Source of the DNA: an uncultured Bacilli bacterium
GTDB taxonomy: Bacteria > Bacillota_I > Bacilli_A > RF39 > UBA660
Length of the DNA stretch: 46,653 nt
Direction: 5' to 3'
NCBI GenBank assembly: GCA_944332715.1
Contig: CALVKN010000007.1
Coordinates: 1 to 46,653 of the forward strand
Notes under the pieces: model-generated
What the model saw: the letters and a program-made list of their open reading frames with translations, nothing else
What the model was told of the DNA's origin: nothing
The model's database searches: none
In this document: in pieces, positions 2,383 through 21,340 of the stretch
Position numbering within the stretch: the first letter of the stretch is position 1
How the letters are laid out: each line of letters starts with the position of its first letter
Made by a program: the position numbers and the translations under genes

Positions 2383-3781
2383 TTTCAACACCCCCATCTA
2401 AACTGAAACTTTTAGCCTCATTTATTTTGACATTAACAATTTTACCAATTAAATCTTTAGAACCTTCAATATTTACGAGTTTCATTGTATCAGTATAACC
2501 ACAGACTTTATTTTCTCCTTTATCACTTGGACCTGTAACTAATACGGGTACAGTTTTACCAACATATTTTTTATTACTTTCTAAAGAATATTTGTTAACA
2601 AGTTCATTTAATCTATGTAGCCTTGCTTCCTTTTCTTCCACTTGAACTTTATCTTCCATTAAGGCAGCAGCAGTACCTACGCGTGGAGAAAAGATAAAAG
2701 TAAATGCTCCATCAAATTTACAATAATCAACTATATCTAAAGTCGCTTGGAAGTCTTCTTCTGTTTCATTAGGAAAACCTACGATAATATCAGTTGTAAT
2801 ACTAACACCTGGAACTTTTTCTTTAATTGTATTAAATAAATGTTTATATTCCTCTACTGTATACCTACGATTCATTTTTTTTAGTATAGTATCACTACCC
2901 GATTGAATAGGCAAATGAATATAAGGCATAATATTTGGATACTTTGCAATTACATCAATCATTTTATCAGTAAAGTTCCAAGGGTGGCTTGTTACAAAAC
3001 GAATTCTAGGTATCCCTATTTTAGCAGTTTCTTCAAGCAATGTAGCAAAATCATACCCTAAATCTAAATCTTTACCATAAGCGTTAACATTTTGACCTAA
3101 AAGAGTTACTTCCATATAGCCGTTATCTTTTAAATATTGTACTTCTTTTAGGATACTTTCTATTTTTCTACTTCGTTCACGACCTCTAGTAAAGGGAACT
3201 ATACAATAAGTACAAAATTTATCACAACCAAGTTGAATATTTATCCAAGCAGATATTTTAGAATCTCTACTATATTTGATATTTTCATGTACTTCATCAC
3301 TATTTGAGTAAACCTCTACAGTTTGTTTACCACTGGCATCAACTATCAACTTTGGTAATTCACTTAAATTATGAGTACCGATTACAATATCAATATATTT
3401 ATGATTTTTTATTATTTCCTCAACTTCACTAGGTTGCTGTGTAAGACAACCACATAAACAAATTATTAAATCTTTTTTTATCTTTTTTAAATGTTTACAT
3501 CTTCCTAAATAACCAAATACTTTGTCTTTAGCATTTTCTCTGATAGCACAAGTATTTAAAACTACTATATCAGCATCTTCCAAAACTTCACTTGGTGTAT
3601 ATCCTAATGCTTCAAGATAATATTTAATTTCTTCAGAATCATGAACATTCATTTGGCAACCGTAAGTTCTAAGAAAATATTTTTTACCTTTAAAAACAGG
3701 TTGGATATCTAAATCAAGATCAATATAGTTTATTTTAACTTTCTCTCTATTCTTAGCAATACATAAATCCGGTTTGTTCAC
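2354..3781 (-). CDS. miaB: tRNA-2-methylthio-N6-dimethylallyladenosine synthase
   Basis: Radical-SAM enzyme that adds a methylthio group to i6A37 of tRNAs reading UNN codons. Domains in order: UPF0004 (FLRTYGCQMNVHDSE, LNTCAIRENA, CGCLTQQ, carrying the three cluster cysteines), the radical-SAM core with GCDKFCTYCIVPFTRGRERSR, and a C-terminal TRAM domain. A frame opens with TTG at 3799, but GTG at 3781 has GGGTGA upstream and is preferred. About 35 residues precede the UPF0004 domain. A promoter with an extended -10 lies directly upstream. Confidence 0.95.
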   Translation of the reverse strand: MNKPDLCIAKNREKVKINYIDLDLDIQPVFKGKKYFLRTYGCQMNVHDSEEIKYYLEALGYTPSEVLEDADIVVLNTCAIRENAKDKVFGYLGRCKHLKKIKKDLIICLCGCLTQQPSEVEEIIKNHKYIDIVIGTHNLSELPKLIVDASGKQTVEVYSNSDEVHENIKYSRDSKISAWINIQLGCDKFCTYCIVPFTRGRERSRKIESILKEVQYLKDNGYMEVTLLGQNVNAYGKDLDLGYDFATLLEETAKIGIPRIRFVTSHPWNFTDKMIDVIAKYPNIMPYIHLPIQSGSDTILKKMNRRYTVEEYKHLFNTIKEKVPGVSITTDIIVGFPNETEEDFQATLDIVDYCKFDGAFTFIFSPRVGTAAALMEDKVQVEEKEARLHRLNELVNKYSLESNKKYVGKTVPVLVTGPSDKGENKVCGYTDTMKLVNIEGSKDLIGKIVNVKINEAKSFSLDGGVESEACIYSKC

Positions 3782-3805
3782 TAAATCACCCGCTTTCAAG
3801 ACTTT

Positions 3806-3833
3806 ATTTTAGCACACTATCAAAAAATGTGAA
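3806..3833 (-). promoter_or_regulatory. Proximal promoter of miaB
   Basis: On the minus strand, the -35-like TTCACA (3828-3833) and -10 TAAAAT (3806-3811) are 16 bases apart, and TGC directly precedes the -10 (extended -10). Confidence 0.55.
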
Positions 3834-3878
3834 AGCGGAATTTTGATGAGTGTGAAATAAAGTTGTGTAGAAAGGTTG

Positions 3879-3909
3879 TGTTATAATAGCATATACAAAC
3901 ACTATATGC
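3879..3909 (+). promoter_or_regulatory. Extended -10 element with adjoining dyad
   Basis: The plus strand carries TGTTATAAT (extended -10, 3879-3887), directly followed by a perfect 7-7-7 inverted repeat, GCATATA/TATATGC (3889-3909), at the expected transcription start. No good -35 box and no convincing ORF downstream are visible. This may be the start of a short regulated RNA, or the dyad may serve minus-strand transcription through the region. The rest of 3910-3979 shows nothing recognisable. Confidence 0.35.
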
Positions 3910-3979
3910 AAAGGATAGAAAAAAGTAAAATGTATTGATTAATAGATATTTTTTTACCAAAACCCCGCTTTCAACAACC

Positions 3980-4060
3980 ATTTTAACAGCATTTTTTATT
4001 ATTGCAAGCGATTCGACAAAAGTAGAAAAAACAAGACAAAATGCGATAAAATTCGACAAA
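3980..4060 (-). promoter_or_regulatory. Distal minus-strand promoter with two TTTGTCGAAT boxes
   Basis: On the minus strand, TTGCAA (4002-4007) and TAAAAT (3980-3985) are 16 bases apart, with TGT before the -10. The sequence TTTGTCGAAT lies three bases upstream of the -35 (4011-4020) and again at 4051-4060. The boxes match the shape of Spo0A (0A) boxes, consensus TTTGTCRAA. The promoter would make a long leader into miaB or an independent small RNA. Confidence 0.4.
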
Positions 4061-4092
4061 AAGTGTCTTTACATAAGTTTACATTTAAAAAG

Positions 4093-4130
4093 ACAACTAG
4101 ATTAGTTATCTAGTTGTTTTTGTCTTTTTC
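4093..4130. terminator. Terminator at the 3' end of the zinc-ribbon gene
   Basis: A perfect 10-bp stem ACAACTAGAT/ATCTAGTTGT (4093-4102 and 4108-4117) with a 5-base loop, flanked by A-rich and T-rich tracts, works in either direction. It overlaps the stop codon at 4110. Confidence 0.75.
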
Positions 4131-5564
4131 ACTCTTAACTTTACCTGTAAATTCTACACCTCTTACCGAAGTGTTATTTGCTCCGAGCATTCTAGAGTTT
4201 GATAATTCTTTTAAACGCATTACATAACTATCTTTTTTTCGTAAGTTAGTAATAGTTCTTTTAGTTTCTAATTCATGTCTATGTCGAGCATTTTTATTGC
4301 GATATTTATAATATATAATAAAGTAATAAATAATACCCAAACTAAGAAAAAGATAACTATAATCAAAATCAACAAAGAGCATTAGTATTATTCCTAATAG
4401 TTCAACTAAGGCTGATATTGCCAGTAACTTTGGTATATGTATTGGAACACTTCCCATAACTTCTTTAGTTCTAGCATTGACTGCTACATAATGTAAAGTC
4501 TTTTTATTACCACGCACTTCTTGATAACTATATAACCAAACAGGTAAGTATGCTGATTTCCATTGTTCTCCCAAAACATCTAAGGTCTCACTGCTCCATG
4601 CAACACCTCTATCATATTCTGTTAAAGATTCATTAGCAACAAATCTTGAAATATCTTTAAATTGGGCATTTACTAATGGTTTTAAATCTTCAATATTGAT
4701 ATCTCTTCGCTCAGATGTACACCCTCTTAAATAATTGGCATTCCACTTGACAGCATTTTCAATATCAAAAGGCATTATAGCATTAATAACATTATTAGTT
4801 TTATCATCATCACTTTTATTTAATCTATCAGAATTAGATTCAACTGTTAGGCCTTCAACTGTCAAGTCAAACTCGCGGGATACATCATAAAGGTCCGCAT
4901 CATAATAAGTTCTTCTATGCTCATTATCACCACGAGTATACCTTCTAACTAGTCTTTCACCTTGCCCAACTAATCTAGCATGAGCATTCAAATCAACTAT
5001 CATATAGGGAAAATAAACACTCATTATATTGTTAGTTGTAAACTCTTGTTTAAATTTAGTATTGGCATAAAACTTTCTTTTATTAACAAACGCTCTAATA
5101 ACACTTTGCGCCTCTTCTTTTTTTACTGCAAAAGGTAAAACGACATCAGGAATACTACCATTAGGTATTTGCTCATTAATCGATAATGTATTACGACACC
5201 AGTGACATCTTGCTTGAGTAACTTCAGAAGTATCAATTACAACTTCCGCACCACAACTACTACATTTTAAAGTAACTATATCATTAGTATCTGCAATGAT
5301 ATTTTGAGCACCACTAGCAATAACACTTCCCTCTAAGTCACTAATATCAGTTTCAAAACCTTCAACTTTAACTGGTTCAAATTCATATCTACAGAAATTA
5401 CAACGCAATTTGCCTGTATTTATATTAAGTGCTATATCTGTTGCCCCACATTTTGGGCATTTATCTTGACCATTACTTGCACCATTATCAGTTTTGACAA
5501 TTTTGACATCTGATTGTATAGAAGAATTTTGTTTTTTAATATCTTCATTCAAATCAGGTTTCAT
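4110..5564 (-). CDS. Double zinc-ribbon membrane protein, YdjG-like SPFH partner
   Basis: 484-aa protein with two zinc ribbons near the N-terminus (Cys 36, 39, 55, 58 and Cys 101, 104, 120, 123), a long soluble middle region, and two adjacent transmembrane helices around residues 378-420, followed by a basic tail. It sits four bases downstream of the SPFH gene. In Bacillus subtilis, YdjG (zinc ribbon plus membrane segments) and the SPFH protein YdjI form a membrane complex linked to PspA-type envelope stress. The architecture and gene order here match that pair, so it probably anchors or recruits the SPFH protein. The exact molecular function is not known. Confidence 0.65.
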   Translation of the reverse strand: MKPDLNEDIKKQNSSIQSDVKIVKTDNGASNGQDKCPKCGATDIALNINTGKLRCNFCRYEFEPVKVEGFETDISDLEGSVIASGAQNIIADTNDIVTLKCSSCGAEVVIDTSEVTQARCHWCRNTLSINEQIPNGSIPDVVLPFAVKKEEAQSVIRAFVNKRKFYANTKFKQEFTTNNIMSVYFPYMIVDLNAHARLVGQGERLVRRYTRGDNEHRRTYYDADLYDVSREFDLTVEGLTVESNSDRLNKSDDDKTNNVINAIMPFDIENAVKWNANYLRGCTSERRDINIEDLKPLVNAQFKDISRFVANESLTEYDRGVAWSSETLDVLGEQWKSAYLPVWLYSYQEVRGNKKTLHYVAVNARTKEVMGSVPIHIPKLLAISALVELLGIILMLFVDFDYSYLFLSLGIIYYFIIYYKYRNKNARHRHELETKRTITNLRKKDSYVMRLKELSNSRMLGANNTSVRGVEFTGKVKSEKDKNN

Positions 5565-5568
5565 AATA

Positions 5569-6801
5569 CTATATTCCTAACAATTGAGCTTTTACTTTAT
5601 CGTAATCTTCTTGTGTAATTGCTCCAGCATCAAGAAGTTTTTTCATTTCTAAAAGTTTAGTTGTAGCATCACTTTGAGTATTTTGCGCTGGTGCTACATT
5701 TTGTTCTGGAGCCACTTGTTGTGGAGCACTTTGTGGTTGATTGAATGCCGGTTGGTAACTTGAAGGTGTTGGTTGTTGTTGCATACCACTAACCATTCCA
5801 CCAGCTGCTTGCATTCCCATTCCCATGAAAGCAAGACCAGTTCCACCACCGTTTTCTCCAGCAGATTGCATGCCACGAGCGGCTGCTTGTTGCATAAAGG
5901 CATTTCCTCTAGCACCAGATAAAGCATCAGCTTTCTTAACATCGCTCATAAGTGCTTTAGTATCTTCATCGTATTCGATAGCAAGTATTGCTGTTTTAAC
6001 AATTTCTAGACCACGAGTTGATTTCCATTGATAAGCATCTTCAACGGCTTTAGCCATTGCTTGAGCAAAACCAATTTGATCTCCTTGAATCTTAGAAATA
6101 CGATTACCCTTTGATGGATCGTTAGTATAATTAGAAAATGCTGCGGATAAAGTACCTACCACTTCATTAAATAATTGCGTTGCAGCATCATTATCCATAT
6201 CAGCAAAGTCAAATACTTTAGCATTTGCTTGTAAATACTGAGCAGGAACAAAATTTTTCACAAATAACATTGGGTCAACTATTTTTAAAGTATAAGTACC
6301 TCTAGTTACACATCCTACTTGTGTTCCAAAGTAAGCATCATCCCAATAAATTTCTGATTGTGTTCCAAATTTGTTATTAGGAATTTCTTTTAAATTAATG
6401 TAGAATGCTAATTGTTGAGAACCTGGTTGTCCACCAAATTTAAATCTTTCCCAGGATTGACTAAGAGTTGATGAAATTATACCATCTCCTCCAAAAAATG
6501 ATCTGGAATTTGGATCATCTGATTTAAATTCAAATCCTCCTGGTTCTGCAATCAAGCCAGTAATTTGACCATCTTGAACTGTAATTAATGCAGTTCCTTC
6601 TGGAACGATTATTTTACTTCCATTGGAAATAATATTTTCGCTTCCTTTAGTATTTTCGCCACGTCCGGCATTAGTTCCACTAGCAACTGCTGGAAAAACT
6701 GCTGCTGTTGCGGGAACATTTGGTATTGGAGCATAAAAATCTTTCCATTGGTCAGCAAAGGTGCCACCAAGGGCTCCGGCAAAAGCTTTAATAAATCCCA
6801 T
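5569..6801 (-). CDS. SPFH-domain protein with C-terminal SHOCT domain, YdjI-like
   Basis: 410-aa protein of the YdjI / virion-core-like SPFH family. The N-terminal half includes EGTALITVQDGQITGL and ALLAIEYDEDTK-like SPFH segments, then a Gln/Pro/Gly-rich linker (about residues 320-375). The last 35 residues form a SHOCT module (LLEMKKLLDAGAITQEDYDKVK). There is no transmembrane helix, so membrane attachment probably comes from the adjacent zinc-ribbon protein. The ATG has AGAGG seven bases upstream. It is first in a two-gene operon with its own promoter and a palindrome in the leader. A role in membrane organisation or envelope stress is inferred. Confidence 0.78.
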   Translation of the reverse strand: MGFIKAFAGALGGTFADQWKDFYAPIPNVPATAAVFPAVASGTNAGRGENTKGSENIISNGSKIIVPEGTALITVQDGQITGLIAEPGGFEFKSDDPNSRSFFGGDGIISSTLSQSWERFKFGGQPGSQQLAFYINLKEIPNNKFGTQSEIYWDDAYFGTQVGCVTRGTYTLKIVDPMLFVKNFVPAQYLQANAKVFDFADMDNDAATQLFNEVVGTLSAAFSNYTNDPSKGNRISKIQGDQIGFAQAMAKAVEDAYQWKSTRGLEIVKTAILAIEYDEDTKALMSDVKKADALSGARGNAFMQQAAARGMQSAGENGGGTGLAFMGMGMQAAGGMVSGMQQQPTPSSYQPAFNQPQSAPQQVAPEQNVAPAQNTQSDATTKLLEMKKLLDAGAITQEDYDKVKAQLLGI

Positions 6802-9811: not shown

Positions 9812-10013
9812 CTTAAAAATAAAAAGGATGATGCCAAGGAGTGCAAGTGCACGGTACCACCCTTTATTTAACTCATTTTTGATAACGGTATTCTCCGGGA
9901 TTTATTAAATCCAACTCCAAAGGTAGATTCATTATACTTCCATTTTTAGTTTCCACCAGCCACTAAATCTCTATAAACTTCCATATAATTACTTATCCTT
10001 TATCTTCGTTGAT
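9812..10013 (-). promoter_or_regulatory. T-box riboswitch leader, serine specifier (UCU)
   Basis: Read on the minus strand, the leader has stem I with the AGTA motif and a GGAAG...AGAG and GCTGGTGGAAAC apical region. A specifier region GAA-TCT-ACC follows (TCT = Ser, at 9927-9925), then the hallmark T-box sequence AGGGTGGTACCGTG (about 9854-9866). The terminator pairs AAAGG-TGGTACC with GGCATCATCCTTT, followed by TTTTTATTTTT. Uncharged tRNA-Ser binding should favour the antiterminator and transcription of dipeptidase-serS. The codon call is by alignment to the usual GAA-NNN-ACC pattern and agrees with the serS target. Confidence 0.9.
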
Positions 10014-10019
10014 GTAAAT

Positions 10020-10049
10020 AATATACCACAAAACATTTAGTTAATGCAA
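10020..10049 (-). promoter_or_regulatory. Promoter of the T-box leader
   Basis: On the minus strand, TTGCAT (10044-10049) and TATATT (10020-10025) are 18 bases apart. Transcription would start near 10013, just before stem I. Confidence 0.65.
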
Positions 10050-10092
10050 GCACAATTTATTAAGTGAAATTCATAATATTTAAAAACATTAC

Positions 10093-10149
10093 TTTGTCGA
10101 ATTTTGTCATACGATTTTTCTTGCATTTATAAATATATTACTCTAGAAT
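10093..10149 (+). promoter_or_regulatory. Promoter of the small hydrophobic peptide gene with upstream TTTGTCGAAT box
   Basis: On the plus strand, TTGCAT (10121-10126) and TAGAAT (10144-10149) are 17 bases apart, placing the start near 10156. TTTGTCGAAT lies at 10093-10102, upstream of the -35. The same 10-mer precedes another promoter near 4011. Confidence 0.6.
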
Positions 10150-10156
10150 AGATAAC

Positions 10157-10414
10157 CGTTACCTGCTAGTGGTAGTGCCTGCTTTAAATCTGAGTAATCT
10201 ATTACTACTCAAATATTGGGGGTTTTGGATGCAAGGAGGCAAAGAGATGAAAGAAGAAACAATTGAAAAACTTTTAGTAATCATAATTATGTTACTCGTA
10301 ATTATATTGCGTTTAATATAAAAAATAGACACTAGCCTTGTAGCCCCAATTTTGATTGGGCAGGTATAGTGTCTAAGCAAAGATATTTGCAGGCATTATC
10401 CACTAGGGGTAACG
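10157..10414. repeat. 26-bp imperfect inverted repeat enclosing the peptide gene
   Basis: The left arm 10157-10182 (CGTTACC..CTAGTGG.TA.TGCCTGC) is complementary to the right arm 10389-10414, with a G-T wobble and a small bulge. In a plus-strand transcript the two arms would form a long 5'-3' closing stem around the ORF. The minus-strand RNA starts with the same sequence as the mRNA 5' end. Confidence 0.75.
10247..10321 (+). CDS. 24-aa hydrophobic peptide, candidate type I toxin
   Basis: The ORF has an optimal ribosome binding site (AAGGAGG, 10233-10239, seven bases before ATG) and encodes a charged start (MKEETIEK), a solid Leu/Ile/Val/Met stretch of about 13 residues with one Arg near the end, and a TAA stop. 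Size and profile resemble the Ibs, Fst and TxpA/BsrG classes of membrane toxins. The predicted mRNA begins near 10156 and its 5' and 3' ends are complementary. A separate small RNA gene reads toward it from the opposite strand across its 3' region, as in txpA/RatA and bsrG/SR4. Toxicity is inferred, not shown. Confidence 0.6.
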   Translation: MKEETIEKLLVIIIMLLVIILRLI

Positions 10415-10419
10415 CTCAC
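10319..10419 (-). ncRNA. Small RNA opposite the peptide mRNA 3' region, candidate antitoxin
   Basis: A minus-strand transcription unit of about 100 nt has no coding potential of note. Its promoter (10426-10454) is near consensus. It ends in a strong intrinsic terminator: AGACACTA/TAGTGTCT stem (10327-10334 and 10367-10374) with an inner CCCAAT/ATTGGG hairpin, then ATTTTTT. The transcript is fully complementary to the 3' untranslated part of the predicted peptide mRNA. That arrangement is typical of antisense antitoxins with 3' overlap. Confidence 0.6.
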
Positions 10420-10425
10420 GTTTAT

Positions 10426-10454
10426 AATATATCAAATTTTGTTTATTTTATCAA
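10426..10454 (-). promoter_or_regulatory. Promoter of the small antisense RNA
   Basis: On the minus strand, TTGATA (10449-10454) and TATATT (10426-10431) are exactly 17 bases apart. It overlaps the last codons of the gene ending at 10451. Confidence 0.7.
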
Positions 10455-11119
10455 TAGATAACAGATTCAATGCCATCAATACCTTCTATTTGACTAACTA
10501 TTTCATCTATATTATCTAAATTATCCAAATTTATTATAAAACTATCCGATAAAGGATTTTCCTCCAAATATCCAAATACTTCATTAAATATATCGTTTGA
10601 TTCACTCATTTCTTTTCGCCATTCATCTCTACTTTTAAATGTTACTGAACTTATATTTTCAATTTTTTCTATTTTTTCTTTTATAACTTGAATTTCTTCA
10701 CTATCTACACTATTGTTAATATAGGCTACAATATTTACATCACTAGGAGATACAACAAGTTCTACTTTTGTTACATTTTCTATTTGAGCAGGACTTGTTT
10801 CCTTTATTTCTCCTGAAAAAGTTATTTCAAAATTATTGTAAATAGAAATTAAATTAGTTAAATGAGTAAGACTAATCTCTTTTCCTAAATAAATAATACT
10901 AGTGTCATCAGTAATTTCAAATGAATATTCTCCAATAAAGTTAGCATCATTAGCATTCACTGTTATAATTTGGTTTGTAATATCTGTTATTGTTGCTTCG
11001 AATGTTGTTATTTCTAGCGAATCATCTTTATTAATTAACAAAGAAATTACTAAGCCAATAATTATTACTATTAAAACCATACCTATGCTTATACATAGGA
11101 TTTTTAACTCTTTTTTCAT
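10451..11119 (-). CDS. Membrane-anchored DUF3221-like plus FtsX-ectodomain-like protein
   Basis: 222 aa from the ATG at 11119, chosen because AGGGAGG lies six bases upstream (a longer TTG-start frame would translate the ribosome binding site). An N-terminal helix (about residues 5-29) is followed by an OB-like region resembling DUF3221 (ATITDITNQIITVN ... FSGEIKETSPAQIENVTKV). The C-terminal domain matches the extracellular domain of the division protein FtsX: VNIVAYINNSVDSEE, ISSVTFKSRDEW, LEENPLSDSFIINLDN and a final GIDGIESVIY. No permease helices are present, so it cannot be FtsX itself. It may bind peptidoglycan hydrolases or FtsX partners outside the cell (inference). Confidence 0.6.
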   Translation of the reverse strand: MKKELKILCISIGMVLIVIIIGLVISLLINKDDSLEITTFEATITDITNQIITVNANDANFIGEYSFEITDDTSIIYLGKEISLTHLTNLISIYNNFEITFSGEIKETSPAQIENVTKVELVVSPSDVNIVAYINNSVDSEEIQVIKEKIEKIENISSVTFKSRDEWRKEMSESNDIFNEVFGYLEENPLSDSFIINLDNLDNIDEIVSQIEGIDGIESVIY

Positions 11120-11139
11120 TATTTTCCTCCCTAGGTTCA

Positions 11140-11167
11140 ATTATACTTTTTTTACATTATTTGTAAA
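11140..11167 (-). promoter_or_regulatory. Promoter of the FtsX-ectodomain-like gene
   Basis: On the minus strand, TTTACA (11162-11167) and TATAAT (11140-11145) are 16 bases apart. Confidence 0.6.
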
Positions 11168-11184
11168 GATTTGATAGTGAATAA

Positions 11185-11406
11185 TTTGTGAAAATGAGAA
11201 ATTTCATTTGAAATTCCGGTATTGGTAGAAAACTGCAATAAATGTGATTATAGTAGTAATATCTTTCTTTGCCAAGAAAAGGAGGATGGAAATGAAGAGC
11301 TGGAAACATTTAACTTTTGAACAAAAAAAAGTTATATCTAATGGTATTTCACACAATTATAAATTAAAAGAAATTGCTGAATCTTTGGGATTTGATCCAA
11401 CAAGCA
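11185..11406 (+). mobile_element. IS30-family relic (transposase N-terminus only)
   Basis: From ATG 11292 (AAGGAGG upstream at 11278) the plus strand encodes about 40 residues typical of the IS30 N-terminal helix-turn-helix: KSWKHLTFEQKKVI, NYKLKEIAESLGFDPTSI. Homology ends abruptly near 11406, where the frame runs into antisense of the ABM gene; the DDE catalytic domain is absent. The AT-rich stretch from about 11185 (GAGAAATTTCATTTGAAATT) may be the left end of the element. It is a dead fragment that appears to have replaced the 3' end of the neighbouring gene. Confidence 0.6.
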
Positions 11407-11668
11407 TTCTTAAATTATATTTTTCTCTTAAAGCAGCAATTTTTGGCATCATTTCCGATTTATGATGCAAATCCAGGGCATGACGATTTTCCCAACGATC
11501 AATTAACAAAACCGTTTCTGGATCATTTTCAGGATAGAAATATTCATATTTCATATTTCCCGGTTCATTTCTAACAGCTTCTATCAAACCACTAGAAAGC
11601 ATTTCTTTAGCAAATTCTTTAGCACTGCCATTTTGGCCAGTATAATAAATATTAACAATTAAACTCAT
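11357..11668 (-). CDS. ABM-domain monooxygenase-like protein, 3' end altered by IS30 relic
   Basis: Small antibiotic-biosynthesis-monooxygenase fold protein (YgiN/quinol monooxygenase type): IVNIYYTGQNGSAKEFAKEM, EPGNMKYEYFYPENDPETVLLIDRWENRHALDLHHKSEMM, LREKYNLRM. Such dimeric alpha/beta-barrel proteins oxidise quinols or act on small aromatics; the substrate here is unknown. The last 15 or so residues (after LRM) are encoded by antisense IS30 sequence and replace the normal end. It lies 17 bases after the CAP gene with its own GGAGGAGG, so it is probably cotranscribed. Activity may survive because the core is intact. Confidence 0.75.
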   Translation of the reverse strand: MSLIVNIYYTGQNGSAKEFAKEMLSSGLIEAVRNEPGNMKYEYFYPENDPETVLLIDRWENRHALDLHHKSEMMPKIAALREKYNLRMLVGSNPKDSAISFNL

Positions 11669-11685
11669 AATATCCTCCTCCTTAA

Positions 11686-12975
11686 TTAATAGCTAAATAT
11701 TTGTACCCAATAATAAGTGTCATTAAAGTAAGCAATTCCAACCCCCATTTTAGTAAAACTAGCATCGACCATATTAGCGTGATGTCCCGGAGATTTGTCC
11801 CAAGTGCTTACTACTCTAGATGGTGTACTTTGCCCAGCTGCAATATTTTCTGCATTAAAATTAAACCCAAATTCATTTCCGATAGTAAAACAAAGTGAAC
11901 CATCAGGTCGATAATGCGAAACATTTCCGCCATAACTTATTTCTAGCGACCTAATCATTGCCATAGTTGTAAGCGTTGTATCTAAAGATAAAGGAGCTAC
12001 ACCTTCTTTAGTTCTAATATCATTAACTAAATTTAATATTTCATTAACTTTAGCACTATATTTTGAGGCATTCGATAAAGCTTCTGGTTTTAAAGTATCT
12101 GTTGTACCATTGTAGCCGGAATAATCATATTCTTTTTCTAAAACTGTCGTTTTACTCAGTTCTTCAGTACCATCAGTGTATTTTATATAATCATCGATAT
12201 ATTTGGTAATTTCAATTAAACCATATTTATAACTATTAGTTTCCTCTCTAATTTTAGAATAAGTTCCCGCATATTCTTTATACGTACTATTATCGCTATT
12301 ATTATCACTAGGTTTATTTTCATTATTTGGTTTATTAGTATTACTTGAAGTGTCATCTTTATTATTGGTATTTGTAGTTTTATCAGTTGAGGAAATTGTA
12401 AGCATTGCTTCTTTAGTTACTTTATTTTCTGCAGTATCACTGGCATTTATTACGATTTTATATTCTCCTTCATCTTCGTAAGTAGCCATTTTTTCATCAT
12501 CAAAGTTTAAAATACATGATTCATTAGAATTATCAGTACAACTTACAACGAAGTCTTCAATACTGTATTCAGAATTTTTGTTGATTTCTAAATCTTTAAC
12601 TTCTAAGTTTGGGGATGATAAGTCTTTTATTGTTAAAGTAGTAGAATAATCTTTCCCATCTATAGTAATTAGAACTTCATATTCACCAAGTGCATCATAC
12701 TTATCTTTTAAATAAACCAATTCACCATTTTGGTAATAATTAATTACATAGTCATTAGAAGTTACATCTTTATTAAAAAACTTAGAAACTGGTAAAATGT
12801 TAGAGTTTAAATCAACTTCTATGTTTTCTTTAATTTTTAGTTCAGTTGTAATTGGTTTCGAATTACTACTTACTTCTATTTTTTTATTATTTATAATAAG
12901 TAGTATTACTATACAGGAAATTACTAATATAACTCCAATAACACTTAAAATAATTATAAGTTTTCTTTTTTTCAT
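11686..12975 (-). CDS. Membrane-anchored surface protein with Ig-like region and CAP (SCP/PR-1) domain
   Basis: 429 aa. An N-terminal transmembrane anchor (about residues 4-28) is followed by an extracellular region with an Ig-like/DUF5011-type module (GEYKIVINASDTAENKVTKEA), then a low-complexity linker of Asn, Thr, Ser, Lys and Asp (about 195-235). The C-terminal CAP domain occupies about 310-429 with LVNDIRTKEGVAPLSLD, MAMIRSLEIS, NVSHYRPDGS, NIAAGQ and SPGHHANMVD. Bacterial CAP proteins (YkwD type) are secreted and of uncertain activity. AGGTGA lies upstream of the ATG. Confidence 0.85.
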   Translation of the reverse strand: MKKRKLIIILSVIGVILVISCIVILLIINNKKIEVSSNSKPITTELKIKENIEVDLNSNILPVSKFFNKDVTSNDYVINYYQNGELVYLKDKYDALGEYEVLITIDGKDYSTTLTIKDLSSPNLEVKDLEINKNSEYSIEDFVVSCTDNSNESCILNFDDEKMATYEDEGEYKIVINASDTAENKVTKEAMLTISSTDKTTNTNNKDDTSSNTNKPNNENKPSDNNSDNSTYKEYAGTYSKIREETNSYKYGLIEITKYIDDYIKYTDGTEELSKTTVLEKEYDYSGYNGTTDTLKPEALSNASKYSAKVNEILNLVNDIRTKEGVAPLSLDTTLTTMAMIRSLEISYGGNVSHYRPDGSLCFTIGNEFGFNFNAENIAAGQSTPSRVVSTWDKSPGHHANMVDASFTKMGVGIAYFNDTYYWVQIFSY

Positions 12976-13039
12976 TTTACTTCACCTAATTTTATTTTAC
13001 TAGTTATTTAAAAAAATGTCCATAGAAATAAAGATATGA

Positions 13040-13045
13040 TATAAT
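13040..13045 (+). promoter_or_regulatory. Extended -10 promoter element of the zinc-ribbon gene
   Basis: TGATATAAT (13037-13045) predicts transcription start near 13052, which excludes the upstream ATG at 13051 and supports the start at 13072. The -35 region is weak. Confidence 0.5.
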
Positions 13046-13071
13046 AGTTTATGAAAGGAATTAGTGAAAAT

Positions 13072-13383
13072 ATGTATTGTAGTGACTGTGGAAAAAAAGT
13101 AAAAGATGGTGCTGATATTTGTTTTAATTGCGGTAAGGAAATACCTAGAGGTATCAATAAATATATAACCGCAGAAAATTTGCCTGAAGAATACAAACCC
13201 ATTTCGATGTGGGGATACTTTGGTTATCAAATTCTTTTTGCCATTCCTATTATTGGTTGGATAATTTTAATTGTATATGCTATTGGTGGTGCACCAAATA
13301 TTAATGTTCGCAATTTTGCAAGGTCTTATTTTTGCTTTTATATAATTGCAGCAACACTTCTTTTAATAGTTTATCTAAGTTAA
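13072..13383 (+). CDS. Small zinc-ribbon membrane protein
   Basis: 103 aa. An N-terminal zinc ribbon (YCSDCGKKV ... CFNCGKE) is followed by a linker and two hydrophobic helices (LFAIPIIGWIILIVYAIGG and the C-terminal YIIAATLLLIVYL) separated by NINVRNFARSYF. The start at 13072 puts Cys at residue 3, as in other zinc_ribbon_2 proteins, and has AAAGGAA upstream. Such proteins are common and uncharacterised. It is divergent from the CAP gene and convergent with the DUF1287 gene. Confidence 0.8.
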   Translation: MYCSDCGKKVKDGADICFNCGKEIPRGINKYITAENLPEEYKPISMWGYFGYQILFAIPIIGWIILIVYAIGGAPNINVRNFARSYFCFYIIAATLLLIVYLS

Positions 13384-13414
13384 AAAGTCAAACTTTTAAG
13401 CAGTTTGGCTTTTT
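13382..13414. terminator. Bidirectional terminator
   Basis: AAAAAGTCAAACT (13382-13394) pairs with AGTTTGGCTTTTT (13402-13414) with one wobble, between two convergent genes. Confidence 0.75.
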
Positions 13415-14066
13415 AACTTATTCTGTAATGACCTACTATATCTGATCTATATTCTAATATATCTTCTTCATAAAATTTTTGATAAGGATTAGCATGATGG
13501 ATAACAAAAGGAACTCCATCTTTATTTCTAGCATCAGAAATTATTCCTATGTGACTATCAAAAATTACTATATCTCCACCCTGCCAAGCTGAGATATCAG
13601 AAATATCAGTTGTTAAAGATATAGCATTGTTAGCAAAATAAACTTTCAAGTTTTGAACTCTCCTGAAGTCGATATTTTTATCAATGTTATCTATATTGTA
13701 GTTATTTGGATTATTTTTAATATCTTCATTTACGAGTTCCATTAAGTCATATCCGGCATCTATTAGAGCAAAGGCTACAACATCGGTACAAACACCATAG
13801 TTATCAGTGGGATATCCTCCATCATAATAAACACTTTTATACTTAGGATTTGTTGCAATATATTTTTTAGCATTATTTAAAATATCTGTTTGGTCATCTA
13901 TTCCATCAGAATCTTTATCTATATCACTTATATATGGAGTAATATTAAAATCTTCATTAGTATATTTTTTATGTGGTATATAGTTAAACACATACAATAA
14001 ATAAACTATCAAAATAATAATTACTAATAAAACTGTAGATATAATTAATATTTTTTTCTTTTTCAT
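13413..14066 (-). CDS. Membrane-anchored DUF1287 protein (NlpC/P60-like fold)
   Basis: 217 aa. An N-terminal anchor (about residues 5-27) precedes a DUF1287 domain: YDGGYPTDNYGVCTDVVAFALIDAGYDL, NIDKNIDFRRVQNL, GGDIVIFDSHIGIISD, VIHHANPY and the closing GHYRIS. The Cys in GVCTD and His in SHIGI correspond to the catalytic Cys/His expected of this papain-like family, which is thought to act on cell-wall peptides. A DKDSDGIDD segment (about 50-58) looks like an EF-hand/dockerin-type calcium loop. It shares its 3' terminator with the convergent zinc-ribbon gene. Confidence 0.82.
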   Translation of the reverse strand: MKKKKILIISTVLLVIIILIVYLLYVFNYIPHKKYTNEDFNITPYISDIDKDSDGIDDQTDILNNAKKYIATNPKYKSVYYDGGYPTDNYGVCTDVVAFALIDAGYDLMELVNEDIKNNPNNYNIDNIDKNIDFRRVQNLKVYFANNAISLTTDISDISAWQGGDIVIFDSHIGIISDARNKDGVPFVIHHANPYQKFYEEDILEYRSDIVGHYRIS

Positions 14067-14100
14067 AATTCCTCTTTTTATCTATTATATTATAAATTAT

Positions 14101-14262
14101 CTAAGTATCAAATTCCAAATAATAAAATATATTAGTATCTAAATCATAAAAAGCAATAGTAAAATTAAAGGAATATCTACCAAACAAATCTTCATCACTA
14201 TGTTCATCTGTTACTCCATCATGTCTATCTATGAATAAATAGTAGGAAACATGTGTTCCATT
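14101..14262 (-). pseudogene. C-terminal fragment of an unidentified gene
   Basis: A minus-strand frame different from that of the ATPase fragment stays open to TAG at 14101-14103 and reads VSYYLFIDRHDGVTD, then EHSDEDLFGRYSFNFTIAF and a final FYYLEFDT. It has no start codon of its own and enters from inside the ATPase remnant, so it looks like the tail of another gene joined by deletion. The family is not recognised. Confidence 0.4.
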
Positions 14263-14618
14263 TCTACTTTTCCTACTGGAAATGATGAACTAAATCTATT
14301 TTGCTTAACTCCTAGCAGTGATCCTGCACATATTATTTTATAATTGTTTGCACTTTCACAAAAATACTTTAAAGATGTTATAAATTTTTCTGAAACTTGA
14401 ACTTCATCAAAAAATATTACAGTATTATCAATATCGATAGTTTTTTCTAGCCTTACTTCGATATTTTTTATTATTTCTTCAGGTTTAAGTGTATTTTCAA
14501 ATATTTTTGTAATTTCAACATCTTTTTCTAAATTAAAATATAAATAGTTTTCAAAATTTTCTTTACAAAACTTTTCAATAGTATATGTTTTGCCTATTTG
14601 TCTAGCCCCGATAATCAT
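14229..14618 (-). pseudogene. Truncated AAA ATPase of the DUF4143 (AAA_14) type
   Basis: The fragment has Walker A GARQIGKT, the AAA_14 strand YLYFNLEKD, Walker B NTVIFFDEVQVSE, the sensor-like KIICAGSLLGV and SSFPVGKVEMEHMFP, typical of the large ATP-binding AAA/DUF4143 family (about 400-430 aa). Only about 130 residues remain: homology stops after HMFP and the DUF4143 half is missing. Upstream, the frame is open through a repeat array (KKWCQKVAFFHKPL before MIIGARQ, like the usual N-terminus) but lacks a start codon or ribosome binding site. It is therefore a decayed gene. Confidence 0.75.
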
Positions 14619-14636
14619 TAATGGCTTATGAAAAAA

Positions 14637-14704
14637 TGCAACTTTTTGGCACCACTTTTTAAGTAAAATTGCAACTTTTTGGCACCACTTTGCTAATTTG
14701 GTGC
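14637..14704. repeat. Two 21-bp direct repeats plus an inverted half copy at the ATPase 5' end
   Basis: TGCAACTTTTTGGCACCACTT occurs at 14637-14657 and 14670-14690 (33-bp period), followed by an inverted partial copy, TTTGGTGC, at 14697-14704. A TATGAT-like element for minus-strand transcription lies just beyond. This could be a regulator-binding array, a tandem duplication within the ATPase N-terminus (both copies encode KWCQKVA), or the multi-repeat end of a transposable element such as IS21; no transposase is seen. Confidence 0.65.
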
Positions 14705-14755
14705 TATGATCATATATAAAGACATTTCTAAATTAACTAGAGTTTTAAATTAAAT

Positions 14756-14965
14756 ATGAATAAACATTATATATTTACGGAATATGATACTAATTTATCA
14801 AAGATTATGTATGATGATAAATATGTCGATTACCATATTGAATTTTTTATGGCTGGTTTAAACGCTATTATCAAAAAATGGTTAAATAATGGCTACCTTG
14901 AGTCTCCAGAAGAAATAAATAAAATTTTGCAAGATGAATATAAACATATAGTTATTAATAAATAG
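14756..14965 (+). pseudogene. C-terminal fragment of a TetR-family regulator
   Basis: The 69-residue frame matches only the effector-domain tail of TetR/AcrR regulators (HIEFFMAGLNAIIKKWLNNG, ESPEEINKIL). The DNA-binding half is absent, no ribosome binding site precedes the ATG, and the upstream frame is closed. It is either a relic or, less likely, a short free-standing protein. Confidence 0.5.
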
Positions 14966-14966
14966 A

Positions 14967-14995
14967 AAAAAGAATACAATCAGGTATTCTCTTTT
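14967..14995. terminator. Bidirectional terminator
   Basis: AGAATAC (14971-14977) pairs with GTATTCT (14984-14990), flanked by an A run and TTTT, at the stop of the lipoprotein gene ending at 14994. Confidence 0.65.
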
Positions 14996-15440
14996 AGTCT
15001 ATAGTAAATTCTACATAAAAATATTCTCTATCTTCTTCTGTTGCTTCTCTTTCTAAAAATGGTATAAAGTATTTTACAATACGGTACTCTCCACTTTCAA
15101 GTGCTCCATAACAATATTCCCAATTGATATTAAAAACTATTGATTTATCATCATCAACTTGTAATCCAACATCATTAAATTCGCAAGTATTAATTGTAGA
15201 AACTTTAAGCCATACATTATCTACAAACTTTTCAATTTCATACCACTCACCGTAAGTGTTGGGATTTTCCATATCTTCAGAAACAGTAAATGATAAGCCT
15301 GTATTAGTTATAGATTCGCCATCTAATTCTATTGCCAAAGTGTAATTGGGATTGAATGGTATGTCTACTTCTTGTTTAGGTGTGCCTTGGCAACCTGTTA
15401 AAGTTAAACATAAAATTGCTAATATTATTATCTTTTTCAT
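14994..15440 (-). CDS. Lipoprotein with Ig-like (Big_14-type) domain
   Basis: 148 aa. A lipoprotein signal with lipobox LTGC (Cys 17) is followed by a beta-rich domain with SITNTGLSFTVSED, YGEWYEIEKF and a C-terminal YGALESGEYRIVKYFIPF. This pattern fits the bacterial immunoglobulin-like domain often attached to BlaR-like or lipoprotein genes. It lies eight bases after the upstream lipoprotein gene, with AAGGAG overlapping that gene's stop, so the two are one operon. Function unknown; it is probably on the outer face of the membrane. Confidence 0.75.
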   Translation of the reverse strand: MKKIIILAILCLTLTGCQGTPKQEVDIPFNPNYTLAIELDGESITNTGLSFTVSEDMENPNTYGEWYEIEKFVDNVWLKVSTINTCEFNDVGLQVDDDKSIVFNINWEYCYGALESGEYRIVKYFIPFLEREATEEDREYFYVEFTID

Positions 15441-15448
15441 TTTTCTCC

Positions 15449-15898
15449 TTAAAACTTATAATCAGTTTCACTTTCGATTATATTTTTAACTGTGTTTTCA
15501 CCTTGGACATTAAAATAACAGTTATTGGATGAGTTTTCCGGTCTAATTCTTTCTATGTTTGGCCAAAAATCAATTGTATCTAACAAATTATCGTTTTCGT
15601 CATACATTTCTAGTTCCATTTGATGAGCATCCGCTAGACAATCAGATCCGCTATAACTACTATTTGAAATTGCAGCGATTAATTCGTTAATAGTTTCACT
15701 ATCTGTGATTGTGCCAACTATTTTATCTTCCGTTAATTCTCTTATGTCTACTCTTACAGTATTTTTCAAATTATCTATTATTTCACTTTCAACATATACA
15801 GTTTCATTTTTCTCTGGAACGTTAGCCTCATCTTTATTACATCCTGTTAGTGAAAAGCCCAACATAATTAAAAATATACCTAACAATATTTTTTTCAT
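15449..15898 (-). CDS. Hypothetical lipoprotein
   Basis: 149 aa. A lipoprotein signal with lipobox LTGC (Cys 20) precedes an acidic mature part that includes IVGTITDSETINELIAAI and two later cysteines (DCLAD, NNCYF) that could form a disulfide. GGAGG lies upstream of the ATG. No family is recognised. It is first of a two-lipoprotein operon inside a region full of gene fragments. Confidence 0.7.
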   Translation of the reverse strand: MKKILLGIFLIMLGFSLTGCNKDEANVPEKNETVYVESEIIDNLKNTVRVDIRELTEDKIVGTITDSETINELIAAISNSSYSGSDCLADAHQMELEMYDENDNLLDTIDFWPNIERIRPENSSNNCYFNVQGENTVKNIIESETDYKF

Positions 15899-15954
15899 AG
15901 CCTTATATCCTCCTTTGCTACTTTAAGTATATCATATACAATTTAAAAGGCAAG

Positions 15955-15980
15955 AAAAAACACTTAGTGTAAAACTAAGT
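15955..15980 (-). terminator. Intrinsic terminator after the ASCH fragment
   Basis: On the minus strand, ACTTAG/CTAAGT (15975-15980 and 15962-15967) with a 7-base loop is followed by GTTTTTTC. Confidence 0.65.
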
Positions 15981-16130
15981 ATCAATTTCATAATTCCATA
16001 TACTAAGTTGCCCTTTTGCCTTAATTGGAGTTTCTAAAGGTTCAATGTTATCTAAAATCCAAGCATATCTTCCTTCTTGGTATTCACCACAAATATACTC
16101 TTGATAGTTTTCTTTTATTAGCAAATGCTG
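15975..16130 (-). pseudogene. C-terminal fragment of an ASCH-domain-like protein
   Basis: The minus-strand frame ending at TAG (15975-15977) reads YICGEYQEGRYAWIL, DNIEPLETPIKAKGQLSIWN. This is the characteristic end of small ASCH-type RNA-binding-fold proteins (G-x-Y-x-x-GRYAWIL ... PI-x-a-K-G ... lWn). There is no start codon; upstream it is fused out of frame to an AlbA_2-type N-terminus. Confidence 0.5.
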
Positions 16131-16227
16131 AGACTGATTTAAGCCAACTTTTTGGCTTACTATATTCGACCTTTTCTTTAAATTCGATATTTGTACTCTC
16201 TATCTTTCCATAATCCTCTAAATGCAT
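16081..16227 (-). pseudogene. N-terminal fragment of an AlbA_2/Schlafen-type ATP-binding regulator
   Basis: A proper start (GGAGGAG, three bases, ATG at 16227) opens MHLEDYGKIESTNIEFKEKV and PKSWLKSVSAFAN, the canonical N-terminus of the AlbA_2 (divergent AAA-4/Schlafen-like) family of several hundred residues. Homology stops after about 38 residues, where the frame enters ASCH sequence out of frame and ends at TGA (16081). The promoter and repeat array upstream look intact. Confidence 0.65.
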
Positions 16228-16245
16228 TTTCTCCTCCATTCAGTT

Positions 16246-16366
16246 TCAAAAACCGGACTTTTTTCTCAAAAACCGGACTTTTTTACTTAATTCTACCATA
16301 AAAGTCCGGTTTTTATATTATTTTTGAATCGAAAACCGGACTTTTTTTCTCGAAAACCGGACTTTT
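16246..16366. repeat. Five-copy repeat array (core AAACCGGACTTTT) around a promoter
   Basis: The motif AAAACCGGACTTTT occurs in direct orientation near 16249-16264, 16269-16284, 16332-16347 and 16353-16366, and inverted at 16300-16315. Pairs are spaced 20-21 bp. A minus-strand -10 (TAGAAT, 16290-16295) sits between the copies, with the inverted copy over its -35 region. The layout suggests multi-site binding controlling the promoter of the AlbA_2-type gene at 16227. The rightmost copy overlaps the copZ stop codon. Confidence 0.8.
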
Positions 16367-16568
16367 ATCTTTCTACTTCAAAACCTAAATTTTCAATCTT
16401 AGTAATTACTTCATTTAATATCTTTTCTTTTTTTACTTTTATAGTTAATGATTTATTTTCTAGTGATACATTAAATGATTCTACACCTTTAATGGTATTT
16501 AAAACATTATTGATACGATTTACGCATCCTTCACATTTCATTCCGTTAATTGTTAATTTATATTCCAT
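16365..16568 (-). CDS. copZ: Copper chaperone, HMA domain
   Basis: 67-aa heavy-metal-associated domain with the metal site GMKCEGC (residues 9-15) and the usual beta-alpha-beta-beta-alpha-beta pattern ending LGFEVE. It delivers Cu(I) to the P-type ATPase or a regulator. Its ATG overlaps the TAA of the copA-like gene by one base (TAATG), with AGGAGG inside the end of that gene, so translation is coupled. Confidence 0.88.
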   Translation of the reverse strand: MEYKLTINGMKCEGCVNRINNVLNTIKGVESFNVSLENKSLTIKVKKEKILNEVITKIENLGFEVER

Positions 16569-18742
16569 TATATTTTCCTCCTTCCAAATATATATGAATT
16601 TAAAACAACGGTTAAACTACTTATAGTCATAGCAATACTTCCAAACATCGGAGTCATCTTTATACTTGCAAATACTCCAGCAGCAATAGGAATCATACAT
16701 AAGTTGTAGATAAATGCCCAGAAGAGATTTTGTTTAATAACCCGATAAGACTTTTTACTAATATTGATTAAATCTAGGATATTATTTATATCATTATTCA
16801 TCAAAATTACATCTGATGAAGATGCTGCAATATCTGTGCCATCGGATATACTTATACCAACGGTTGCTTTAACTAAGGCTGGGGCATCATTAATACCATC
16901 ACCTACCATGGCAACTTTTTTACCTTCATTAATTAAATTATCAATAGTATTTGCTTTATCTTGGGGTAAAACATCAGCATAGATGTTGGTAATACCTATT
17001 TCACTAGCAATAATACTAGCTGTTTCTTTATTATCTCCGGTAAGCATTATGACTTCAATTCCTGAGTCTTGGAATTTCTTAATAACGTGCTGAATATCTT
17101 TTCTAATTGTATCCCGAAGCCCAATTAAGCCGATGACCTTTTTGTTTTGAATGACATAAATTATACTACAACCAGCACTAGTTAATTCTTGATAGTTTTC
17201 AGTGTAAGCATCTTCAATATTTAAATCTTTTAAGATACTTGCATTACCAAGATAATAGGTTTTATGAGTAATACTACCCTTTATTCCCTTACCGGGGATA
17301 ACTTGATAGTTAGTAACATTTAATTTCTCTTTTACTTTGAAAGCTTGCGCTATAGGATGATTAGATAAATTTTCAATGTTAGCAACTATATTTAATAGTT
17401 CTTTATCTGTAAGTGTAGAATAATTAAACATTTTATAAATATTTAATTTGCCATATGTTAATGTTCCTGTTTTATCAAATACTAACGTATCAATATCCTT
17501 GGCTTTCTCTAATACTTCTCCATTACGTAAAAATATTCCTTTTTTAGCACATAATCCATTTGCTACAACATTTACTAGTGGTACTGCTAGACCTAAAGCG
17601 CATGGACAAGCAACAACTAAAATGGTAACAAAATGCGTTAGAGAATCAGTGAGTGATGAACCTAAAGTCAAGTGAACTATAAATGTTAAAATGGCTATAA
17701 CTATAACTATTGGTACAAAGTAACCACTTATTTTATCAGCAAGGCGTTCAATCTTACTCTTGTTAGATGTAGCATTAATTACTATTTCAATAATTTGGGA
17801 TATTGTTGAAGATTTACCTATTCTTTTAGCGTTGTACTCTAAATAACCATCATAAAGGATGGATCCTGCGATAACATTATCTCCAGCCCTTTTTAATACA
17901 GGATTAGATTCTCCGGTGATAAAAGATTCATCAACATAGCTTTTACCGCTTTTAACGATACCATCAACCGCAATTTTTTCTCCGGCTTTACTTATGAGCA
18001 AATCATCTTCTTTTACTTCATCGATGGTTACTTTAACTTCTTCATCTTCTTTTTTTAACACTGCATATTCGGGAGTAATTTGTACTAATTCTTTTAAGGC
18101 ACTTTTAGTTTTTTCTTTACCAAGGGTTTCAATGAAGCGCCCTAATTTAATAAAATAAATAACCATACAAGCAGATTCAAAATAAAGATTGTGGATAAAA
18201 TTAGAGTTACCAACAAGTATTTCAATATAGCCATATAAACTATATAAAAAACTACATAGGACACTAAACATAACTAAAGTATCCATATTGGGCATTTTAT
18301 GAATTAAATTTTTAATACCACTTTTGATAATATCGAAGCCATAGATTAAAAATATAATTGAAACTAATAACATAAACGTTGCAAGTATTACGGGATGATT
18401 GTGATTAATCAAGGGAAATGCTGGAGCATTTATCATGTGATACATAGAAACATACATTAAAAATATTATAACTACACCTAAAATAATTAATTTATATTTA
18501 TCACTAGAATTAGATTCTAATTCATCTATTCTTTTAAATTCGCCGAGACTTTTAAAACCTGCTTCCGAAATATATTTTTCGATCGTCTTAACTGAAATAC
18601 TATCATATTCTACTGTTGCTAAGGATAATACTAAGTTTACGGATGCGCTAATTATTCCTTTTTGTTTAGAAAGGTATTTTTCTAAACCAGAAGAACAAGC
18701 ACTACAAGTCATCCCTGAAATTTTTAAAACTATTTTCTTCAT
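16568..18742 (-). CDS. copA: Copper-transporting P1B-type ATPase
   Basis: Exports Cu(I) across the cytoplasmic membrane using ATP. Counting from the upstream GTG at 18751, the 727-residue protein has one N-terminal HMA domain (GMTCSAC, 13-19), eight predicted transmembrane helices, the actuator TGES (about 279-282), the metal-binding CPC (382-384), the phosphorylation site DKTGT (426-430), an HP-type motif (SNHPIAQAF) and GDGINDAPAL. The ATG at 18742 gives the conventional MKKIVLKISG start; neither start has a strong ribosome binding site. With copZ it forms a copper-efflux operon; no copY/csoR lies nearby. Confidence 0.93.
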   Translation of the reverse strand: MKKIVLKISGMTCSACSSGLEKYLSKQKGIISASVNLVLSLATVEYDSISVKTIEKYISEAGFKSLGEFKRIDELESNSSDKYKLIILGVVIIFLMYVSMYHMINAPAFPLINHNHPVILATFMLLVSIIFLIYGFDIIKSGIKNLIHKMPNMDTLVMFSVLCSFLYSLYGYIEILVGNSNFIHNLYFESACMVIYFIKLGRFIETLGKEKTKSALKELVQITPEYAVLKKEDEEVKVTIDEVKEDDLLISKAGEKIAVDGIVKSGKSYVDESFITGESNPVLKRAGDNVIAGSILYDGYLEYNAKRIGKSSTISQIIEIVINATSNKSKIERLADKISGYFVPIVIVIAILTFIVHLTLGSSLTDSLTHFVTILVVACPCALGLAVPLVNVVANGLCAKKGIFLRNGEVLEKAKDIDTLVFDKTGTLTYGKLNIYKMFNYSTLTDKELLNIVANIENLSNHPIAQAFKVKEKLNVTNYQVIPGKGIKGSITHKTYYLGNASILKDLNIEDAYTENYQELTSAGCSIIYVIQNKKVIGLIGLRDTIRKDIQHVIKKFQDSGIEVIMLTGDNKETASIIASEIGITNIYADVLPQDKANTIDNLINEGKKVAMVGDGINDAPALVKATVGISISDGTDIAASSSDVILMNNDINNILDLINISKKSYRVIKQNLFWAFIYNLCMIPIAAGVFASIKMTPMFGSIAMTISSLTVVLNSYIFGRRKI

Positions 18743-18753
18743 ATCAATCACTA

Positions 18754-18788
18754 ATTATATTATATAATAATTAAATAAAACTAGACAA
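18754..18788 (-). promoter_or_regulatory. Promoter of copA-copZ
   Basis: On the minus strand, TTGTCT (18783-18788) and TATAAT (18759-18764) are 18 bases apart; a second overlapping TATAAT is at 18754-18759. No clear CopY or CsoR operator is seen. Confidence 0.5.
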
Positions 18789-18837
18789 CGAAAAAATGCA
18801 GTATACCATATAATGACAATTTACCTACAAAAATTTT

Positions 18838-19071
18838 TTACACCCTTAACTCTGGTCTTGCTTGACTTTGCAATTCTTTTTTAGCTTCAGCACAACATTC
18901 ATAATAGTCATATGGATAATCCTTAACAGTTTCTACTTTAAATAGATCTGCTCCTGTTTTGGCAGCAATTTTTTCAGCAACTATTTCGGTATTACCTTTA
19001 TCGATGTTTCTAATGCCATCACTCATATAGTTTTCCCCAGTATGAGAAAAATAAATTACTAATTTTTTCAT
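18838..19071 (-). pseudogene. Truncated flavodoxin
   Basis: The N-terminal 70 or so residues are flavodoxin-like: MKKLVIYFSHTGENYMSDG (phosphate-binding loop), TEIVAEKIAAKTGADLFKVE and YPYDYYECCAEAKKELQSQARPEL. The protein stops at ELRV, before the flavin-binding WWG/90s-loop region, at half of normal length (about 150 aa). The promoter and ribosome binding site look functional, so the gene was probably lost recently by a 3' deletion. Confidence 0.7.
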
Positions 19072-19095
19072 AATCCTCCTTTATTAACTAATTAT

Positions 19096-19126
19096 ATCAT
19101 AACGTCTGGAGATAACTCTAAGTCAA
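19096..19126 (-). promoter_or_regulatory. MerR-type promoter (19-bp spacer) of the flavodoxin gene
   Basis: On the minus strand, TTGACT (19121-19126) and TATGAT (19096-19101) are separated by 19 bases that contain an imperfect dyad, TAGAGTTATCTCCA. An overlong spacer with a centred dyad is the hallmark of promoters remodelled by MerR-family activators. No MerR gene is in the window. Confidence 0.6.
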
Positions 19127-19158
19127 GAGTAAAAGAAAAAAACTCTTGCGAGTTTACA

Positions 19159-21332: not shown

Positions 21333-21340
21333 TATTCCAC

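Follow-up and report, generated by a model that had tools for sequence, protein, structure and literature searches.

How FtsEX keeps its hydrolases in check, and how it sets them off, is under active study. In this complex, two FtsX ectodomains grasp a single coiled-coil protein and are moved at the expense of ATP (PMC7668044, PMC10694151), and an ectodomain that has neither permease nor ATPase separates gripping from activating. The window analyzed here, a stretch of 46,653 nucleotides from an uncultured Bacilli bacterium whose assembly comprises 1.52 Mb in 75 contigs, holds a gene whose product, P0001, appears to be such an ectodomain. What would a cell do with it? The initial annotation of the window, made from the sequence alone, had described P0001 as an FtsX-type ectodomain fused to a DUF3221-like domain, and had suggested that it could compete with or replace FtsX in controlling a nearby hydrolase of the CAP, GH25 or DUF1287 type.

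P0001 is a single-helix protein ending in an FtsX ectodomain

P0001 is encoded by an open reading frame of 222 codons running from ATG to stop (Table 1). This frame is not due to chance, since an open run of that length has a probability of 3e-11 in random sequence of matching composition and since its synonymous codon use falls within the range of the neighbouring genes. The ATG is preceded by a ribosome-binding site and, further upstream, by a promoter-like site; as a result, P0001 may be its own transcription unit and is presumably expressed, although matches of this kind are common in the AT-rich surroundings (17 found, 11.9 expected).

The C-terminal half of the protein matches the FtsX_ECD family (PF18075) with 72.4 bits for a gathering cut-off of 23.5 (E 4.9e-20), the alignment of residues 128–220 covering the whole profile (positions 1–96 of 96), and P0001 is thus a member of this family. 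The protein stops directly after the conserved tyrosine that precedes TM2 in FtsX: SVDTVKYGEGMVDN... in the FtsX of the host corresponds to GIESVIY-stop in P0001. Because it ends at the point where TM2 of FtsX starts, P0001 is devoid of a permease domain, as the initial annotation had it. It therefore shares with FtsX the entire ectodomain profile, the fold and the X-lobe with its hydrophobic grip residues (see below), but it is not a full-length FtsX: it has 222 residues and one N-terminal helix (residues 2–29), compared to a permease with four transmembrane helices, and it scores only 56 bits with NF038347 (FtsX_Gpos, cut-off 225) and 45 bits with TIGR00439 (cut-off 255). Nor is ftsE adjacent, the ftsE–ftsX pair being on another contig (C3) while P0001 is flanked by M19–serS and ABM/CAP genes. 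The charges flanking the helix (MKKELK...NKDDSLE) suggest an N-in/C-out topology.

Table 1. Position of the features discussed in the text (window coordinates unless a locus is named).
Feature	Position	Strand	Basis
T-box leader RF00230 (100.9 bits), upstream of the M19 peptidase–serS operon	9834–10015	-	Rfam
Species-specific segment (P0001, ABM, CAP, DUF1287, CopA-type ATPase, others)	9853–21340		Comparison with relatives
P0001 gene: TM helix, DUF3221-like barrel, free-standing FtsX ectodomain	10451–11119	-	ORF, Pfam, models
FtsX_ECD, residues 128–222 (Porter-type beta-alpha-beta core and X-lobe)	10454–10738	-	Pfam, model, PDB matches
X-lobe, residues 161–194 (including M171, F178, F182, L185)	10538–10639	-	HMMER alignment to 6tpi
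DUF3221/YobA-like beta-barrel (OB-like), about residues 36–126	10742–11014	-	Sub-threshold homologues, model, Foldseek
Single N-terminal TM helix, residues 2–29	11033–11116	-	Structure models
Ribosome-binding site GGGAGG before the ATG of P0001	11126–11131	-	Direct sequence reading
Promoter-like site TTTACA-16-TATAAT (11/12 match)	11140–11167	-	Consensus match
IS transposase N-terminus remnant HTH_38 (E 3.1e-6)	11292–11465	+	Overlaps 3' end of ABM gene
CAP protein gene	11686–12975		Pfam
DUF1287 protein gene	13413–14066		Pfam
sufC–sufD, adjoining the species-specific segment	21341–22962		
GH25 gene	37289–38488		
Tandem CC_PcsB + M23 hydrolases behind ftsEX	L076:3467–5992 (3467–4711 and 4760–5992)		

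In an AlphaFold2 model of P0001 built on 44 rows, the ectodomain was predicted with a pLDDT of 84–97, while the N-terminal half was poorly modelled because it had no aligned relatives in that alignment. As MAFFT placed N-terminal-only homologues onto the ectodomain, the two halves were modelled separately. The ectodomain model matched the FtsX ectodomains of the PDB (6he6, 6hfx, 6tpi and 4n8n), as judged from both Foldseek and VIA-align. With Foldseek, places 1–14 were all occupied by FtsX, with TM-scores by target length of 0.63–0.80 for isolated domains and of 0.68–0.80 for the four structures just named. VIA-align gave Z-scores of 12.4–13.7 and an rmsd of 1.9–2.4 over 94–98 residues (Z 13.7 with 6tpi, the E. 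coli domain bound to EnvC, 13.3 with the mycobacterial and 12.6 with the pneumococcal domain), whereas unrelated ferredoxin-like folds scored lower (Z ~8). The model also displays the X-lobe between the two beta-alpha-beta halves, as in FtsX. The predicted fold thus agrees with that of FtsX ectodomains, and the mismatch that had been named in advance as grounds for abandoning the assignment did not occur.

The N-terminal half is probably DUF3221-like

When modelled alone with five homologues, the N-terminal half gave the helix followed by a beta-barrel (pLDDT 84). Its best fold matches in Foldseek were OB-fold domains; the YobA structures 4qy7 and 2jqo came at ranks 28 and 33, with weak scores (E about 0.05), and tRNA synthetase domains of the OB fold were placed ahead of them. 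A Pfam search of P0001 itself returned no match to DUF3221 (PF11518) at E <= 10, whereas three homologues of its N-terminal half matched this family below the gathering score (17.7–21.5 bits for 26.4; E values 3e-4, 1.3e-3 and 4.6e-3). The DUF3221-like domain of the initial annotation therefore stands as a probable likeness, to which the sub-threshold homologues and the weak YobA match point, rather than as family membership. P0001 probably shares the N-terminal barrel with DUF3221 and its representative, B. subtilis YobA, but in P0001 this barrel is fused to an FtsX ectodomain and the protein misses the profile. The N-terminal half also occurs by itself, as single-helix proteins of ~120–145 residues, in four relatives (G009, G354, G226 and G413).

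The X-lobe retains putative hydrolase-contact residues

In E. coli, FtsX takes hold of the coiled coil of EnvC through residues F152, F158, L162 and L165 of the X-lobe and through Y114 of the core (PMC7668044). In the HMMER alignment to 6tpi, these residues align with M171, F178, F182, L185 and Y133 of P0001, respectively; L115 and F126 of S. pneumoniae FtsX fall at M171 and F182, the alignment of the lobe being uncertain by 1–2 residues. A free ectodomain is able to bind its partner: indeed, isolated ECL1 of S. pneumoniae binds the PcsB coiled coil via the same lobe, with a Kd of about 34 uM (PMC6355983), and residues 110–209 of the E. coli protein, taken alone, gave an interaction with EnvC by two-hybrid (PMC7668044). 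With its contact residues preserved, P0001 is a putative ligand of the coiled coil of a PcsB-, CwlO-, RipC- or EnvC-type protein.

P0001 has kept 14 of the 19 X-lobe positions conserved in the FtsX proteins of the genus and 12 of the 28 core positions (Fisher p 0.07), and two ordinary FtsX proteins from other genera display nearly the same ratio. This contrast leans towards preserved binding and relaxed coupling, but it is not statistically secure, and strong selection on the X-lobe was set aside for this reason.

The host has its own FtsEX and two coiled-coil hydrolases

The host is a small Gram-positive-type bacterium with a normal FtsX besides the free-standing ectodomain protein: contig C3 carries an ordinary ftsE–ftsX pair, the FtsX protein scoring 285 bits for a cut-off of 225. 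Since this pair is intact, P0001 is unlikely to replace FtsX; competition with FtsX, the other half of the original suggestion, is plausible because the lobe that grips the coiled coil is preserved. Directly downstream of ftsEX are encoded two tandem proteins, each of which has a coiled coil of the CC_PcsB type as well as an M23 peptidase domain whose zinc ligands (H, D, HxH) appear, by eye, to be present. Any FtsX ectodomain of the host would be expected to bind these proteins, and they make more natural partners for P0001 than the CAP, GH25 and DUF1287 proteins. The CAP and DUF1287 proteins of the window were dropped as primary ligands, as Pfam detected no coiled-coil domain of the PcsB type in either. 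Genomes of the genus mostly encode one CC_PcsB protein. A link between P0001 and the hydrolase duplication was also rejected: two copies are found in 4 of the 30 genomes, and P0001 in one alone.

Free-standing FtsX ectodomains are very rare

To see where else the architecture occurs, we searched 30 genomes of the genus, 386 of the family, 385 of the order, 346 of the class and 215 of the phylum. These samples overlap; all matches were listed for the class and the phylum, and what is said of the family and the order holds among the matches listed. The full P0001 architecture was found in no genus genome besides the host, nor among the matches listed for the family and the order. The survey of the domain pair that had been proposed along with the initial reading thus recovered the pair in the host, but no second genome among the matches listed from genus to phylum. 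In the class and phylum samples, all above-cut-off FtsX_ECD matches lie in permease-sized open frames of at least 296 residues, with two exceptions, namely P0001 and one frame near a contig end. Free-standing copies of the FtsX ectodomain are therefore very rare, and we found no paper describing one in the open-access literature.

Among the matches listed for the family, there is one further strong free-standing ectodomain, in the lipoprotein L061 (genome G354, contig C42; 195 residues to the contig end). Like P0001, it bears the X-lobe (its ectodomain is 42% identical, with 52–54 bits), and a transposase-like gene adjoins it, just as an IS remnant lies near P0001; unlike P0001, it has a lipid-anchor-like N-terminus, another N-terminal domain and a C-terminus cut by the contig end. 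The same genome has the best separate copy of the N-terminal half of P0001. Counterparts of both halves are thus present there as separate genes, encoding an ectodomain lipoprotein (L082, G354:C42) and a 129-residue N-terminal-module protein (L036, G354:C6). That the halves are fused in P0001 and separate in G354 hints, in this one case, at a functional link.

Weaker copies, diverged or without X-lobe, are carried by other lipoproteins and by RDD membrane proteins, indicating that the fold has been re-used in the family. The lipoproteins (L065, L066, L067, L068 and L070), for which no family name was found, combine an FtsX_ECD-like (Porter-type) domain with a C-terminal domain that gives weak lipocalin-like matches in some of them; in several genera, their genes have a sigma-factor, DivIVA-like or YqeH-type GTPase gene as a neighbour. 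The RDD-family proteins (L062:1297–2286 and L064) contain an FtsX_ECD-like insert between TM segments, and their genes sit between those of an HtrA-type protease and a MacB-type ABC transporter.

Origin of the P0001 gene

The P0001 gene belongs to a segment specific to this species, since the relatives compared carry sufS–sufU in its place: sufS–sufU (identified by sequence, not by profile search) is found upstream of M19–serS in seven of the eight loci, and the eighth is on a short contig. The HTH_38 remnant is located 0.2 kb upstream of P0001. A mobile or phage origin was set aside, as tblastn gave 0 matches in 72,556 plasmids, 50,697 phages and viral contigs.

P0001 is 40–45% identical to the FtsX proteins of the genus, and a divergence of this extent in which the residues critical for the fold are retained suggests that the protein has been under constraint for some time; three core positions that are invariant in these proteins are changed (N145V, T207I and K221I). 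In a tree of 42 ectodomains, P0001 and L061 are both on long branches (1.4 changes per site for P0001). Neither a P0001–L061 clade (p-AU 0.44) nor a grouping of P0001 with the FtsX proteins of the genus (p-AU 0.24) is rejected, so that the tree is compatible with an origin from the ftsX gene of the genus as well as from another source.

A possible decoy for FtsEX-controlled hydrolases

We tentatively propose, with somewhat less than even confidence, that P0001 is an FtsX ectodomain which domain shuffling has uncoupled from ATP, and that its targets for tethering or sequestration are the hydrolases controlled by FtsEX, and not the nearby CAP, DUF1287 or GH25 proteins. The TM helix and the DUF3221-like barrel would hold the ectodomain outside the membrane, where its intact X-lobe would bind the coiled-coil region of the two CC_PcsB–M23 hydrolases encoded after ftsX. 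With neither permease nor FtsE, P0001 would be unable to pass on the ATP-driven activating movement; it would therefore capture without activating and, by drawing hydrolase away from FtsEX, might serve as a decoy or a local reservoir that damps hydrolysis. The profile score, the fold match (which includes the EnvC-bound structure), the alignment of the four lobe residues with the main EnvC contacts, the binding of PcsB and EnvC by the ectodomain alone, the presence of ftsE–ftsX and two CC_PcsB–M23 proteins in the host, and the promoter-like and ribosome-binding sites of the gene all argue for this proposal. It is weakened by the modest lobe-versus-core contrast, by the lack of linkage of the gene to ftsEX or the hydrolases, by the failure to find an ortholog with the full architecture among the matches listed and by a hydrolase duplication that does not track P0001; moreover, FtsX grips EnvC with two ectodomains, hence a single one may bind weakly. 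The broader notion that such natural, ATP-uncoupled ectodomains are membrane-tethered antagonists of FtsEX-controlled hydrolases, forming a layer of divisome control that arose by domain shuffling and of which L061 would be a second example, appears doubtful. If P0001 does bind a hydrolase, it would be a natural means of testing whether capture is by itself inhibitory, and the FtsX ectodomain would have been re-used as an independent part.

Alternatively, the fold may have been kept for a ligand other than a hydrolase, for instance the ectodomain of FtsX or another envelope protein from the species-specific segment, in an adhesion or scaffolding role. The long branch, the changed core positions and the FtsX_ECD-like domains on unrelated lipoprotein and RDD frames are in keeping with this; however, the hydrolase-specific X-lobe is kept in P0001 and lost in the lipoprotein L068 (1 of 19 conserved positions), and we hold such an exaptation to be possible but not likely. 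An evolutionary accident, i.e. a transient, IS-associated fusion of a DUF3221-like gene with a copy of an FtsX ectodomain, with no selected function, would account for the occurrence in a single genome (among the matches listed in the searched samples), for the nearby IS-type remnant and for the species-specific locus. Yet it fits poorly with an intact frame of normal codon use, clean domain boundaries, a promoter-like site and ribosome-binding site, and a divergence that suggests constraint, which makes it rather improbable. Finally, P0001 could help FtsEX instead of competing with it, by presenting the hydrolase or localizing it, in the manner of SweC and SweD, which are essential for FtsEX–CwlO in B. 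subtilis (PMC6705773). Like P0001, these are small single-pass proteins tied to the control of an FtsEX hydrolase, but their soluble domains are cytoplasmic and show no homology to P0001 (PMC6705773), and nearly all relatives manage without P0001; a role as positive cofactor is thus highly improbable.

Other features near P0001

Apart from the T-box leader, no structured RNA was detected near P0001 by Rfam at gathering score. At 10229–10420 (plus strand), a small hydrophobic ORF (MKEETIEKLLVIIIMLLVIILRLI) with a strong Shine-Dalgarno sequence is followed by a stable hairpin (fold z-score -4.07 in the interval 10300–10420). It has no match in Pfam, nor in Rfam at gathering score; together with the hairpin, it resembles a type I toxin–antitoxin module.
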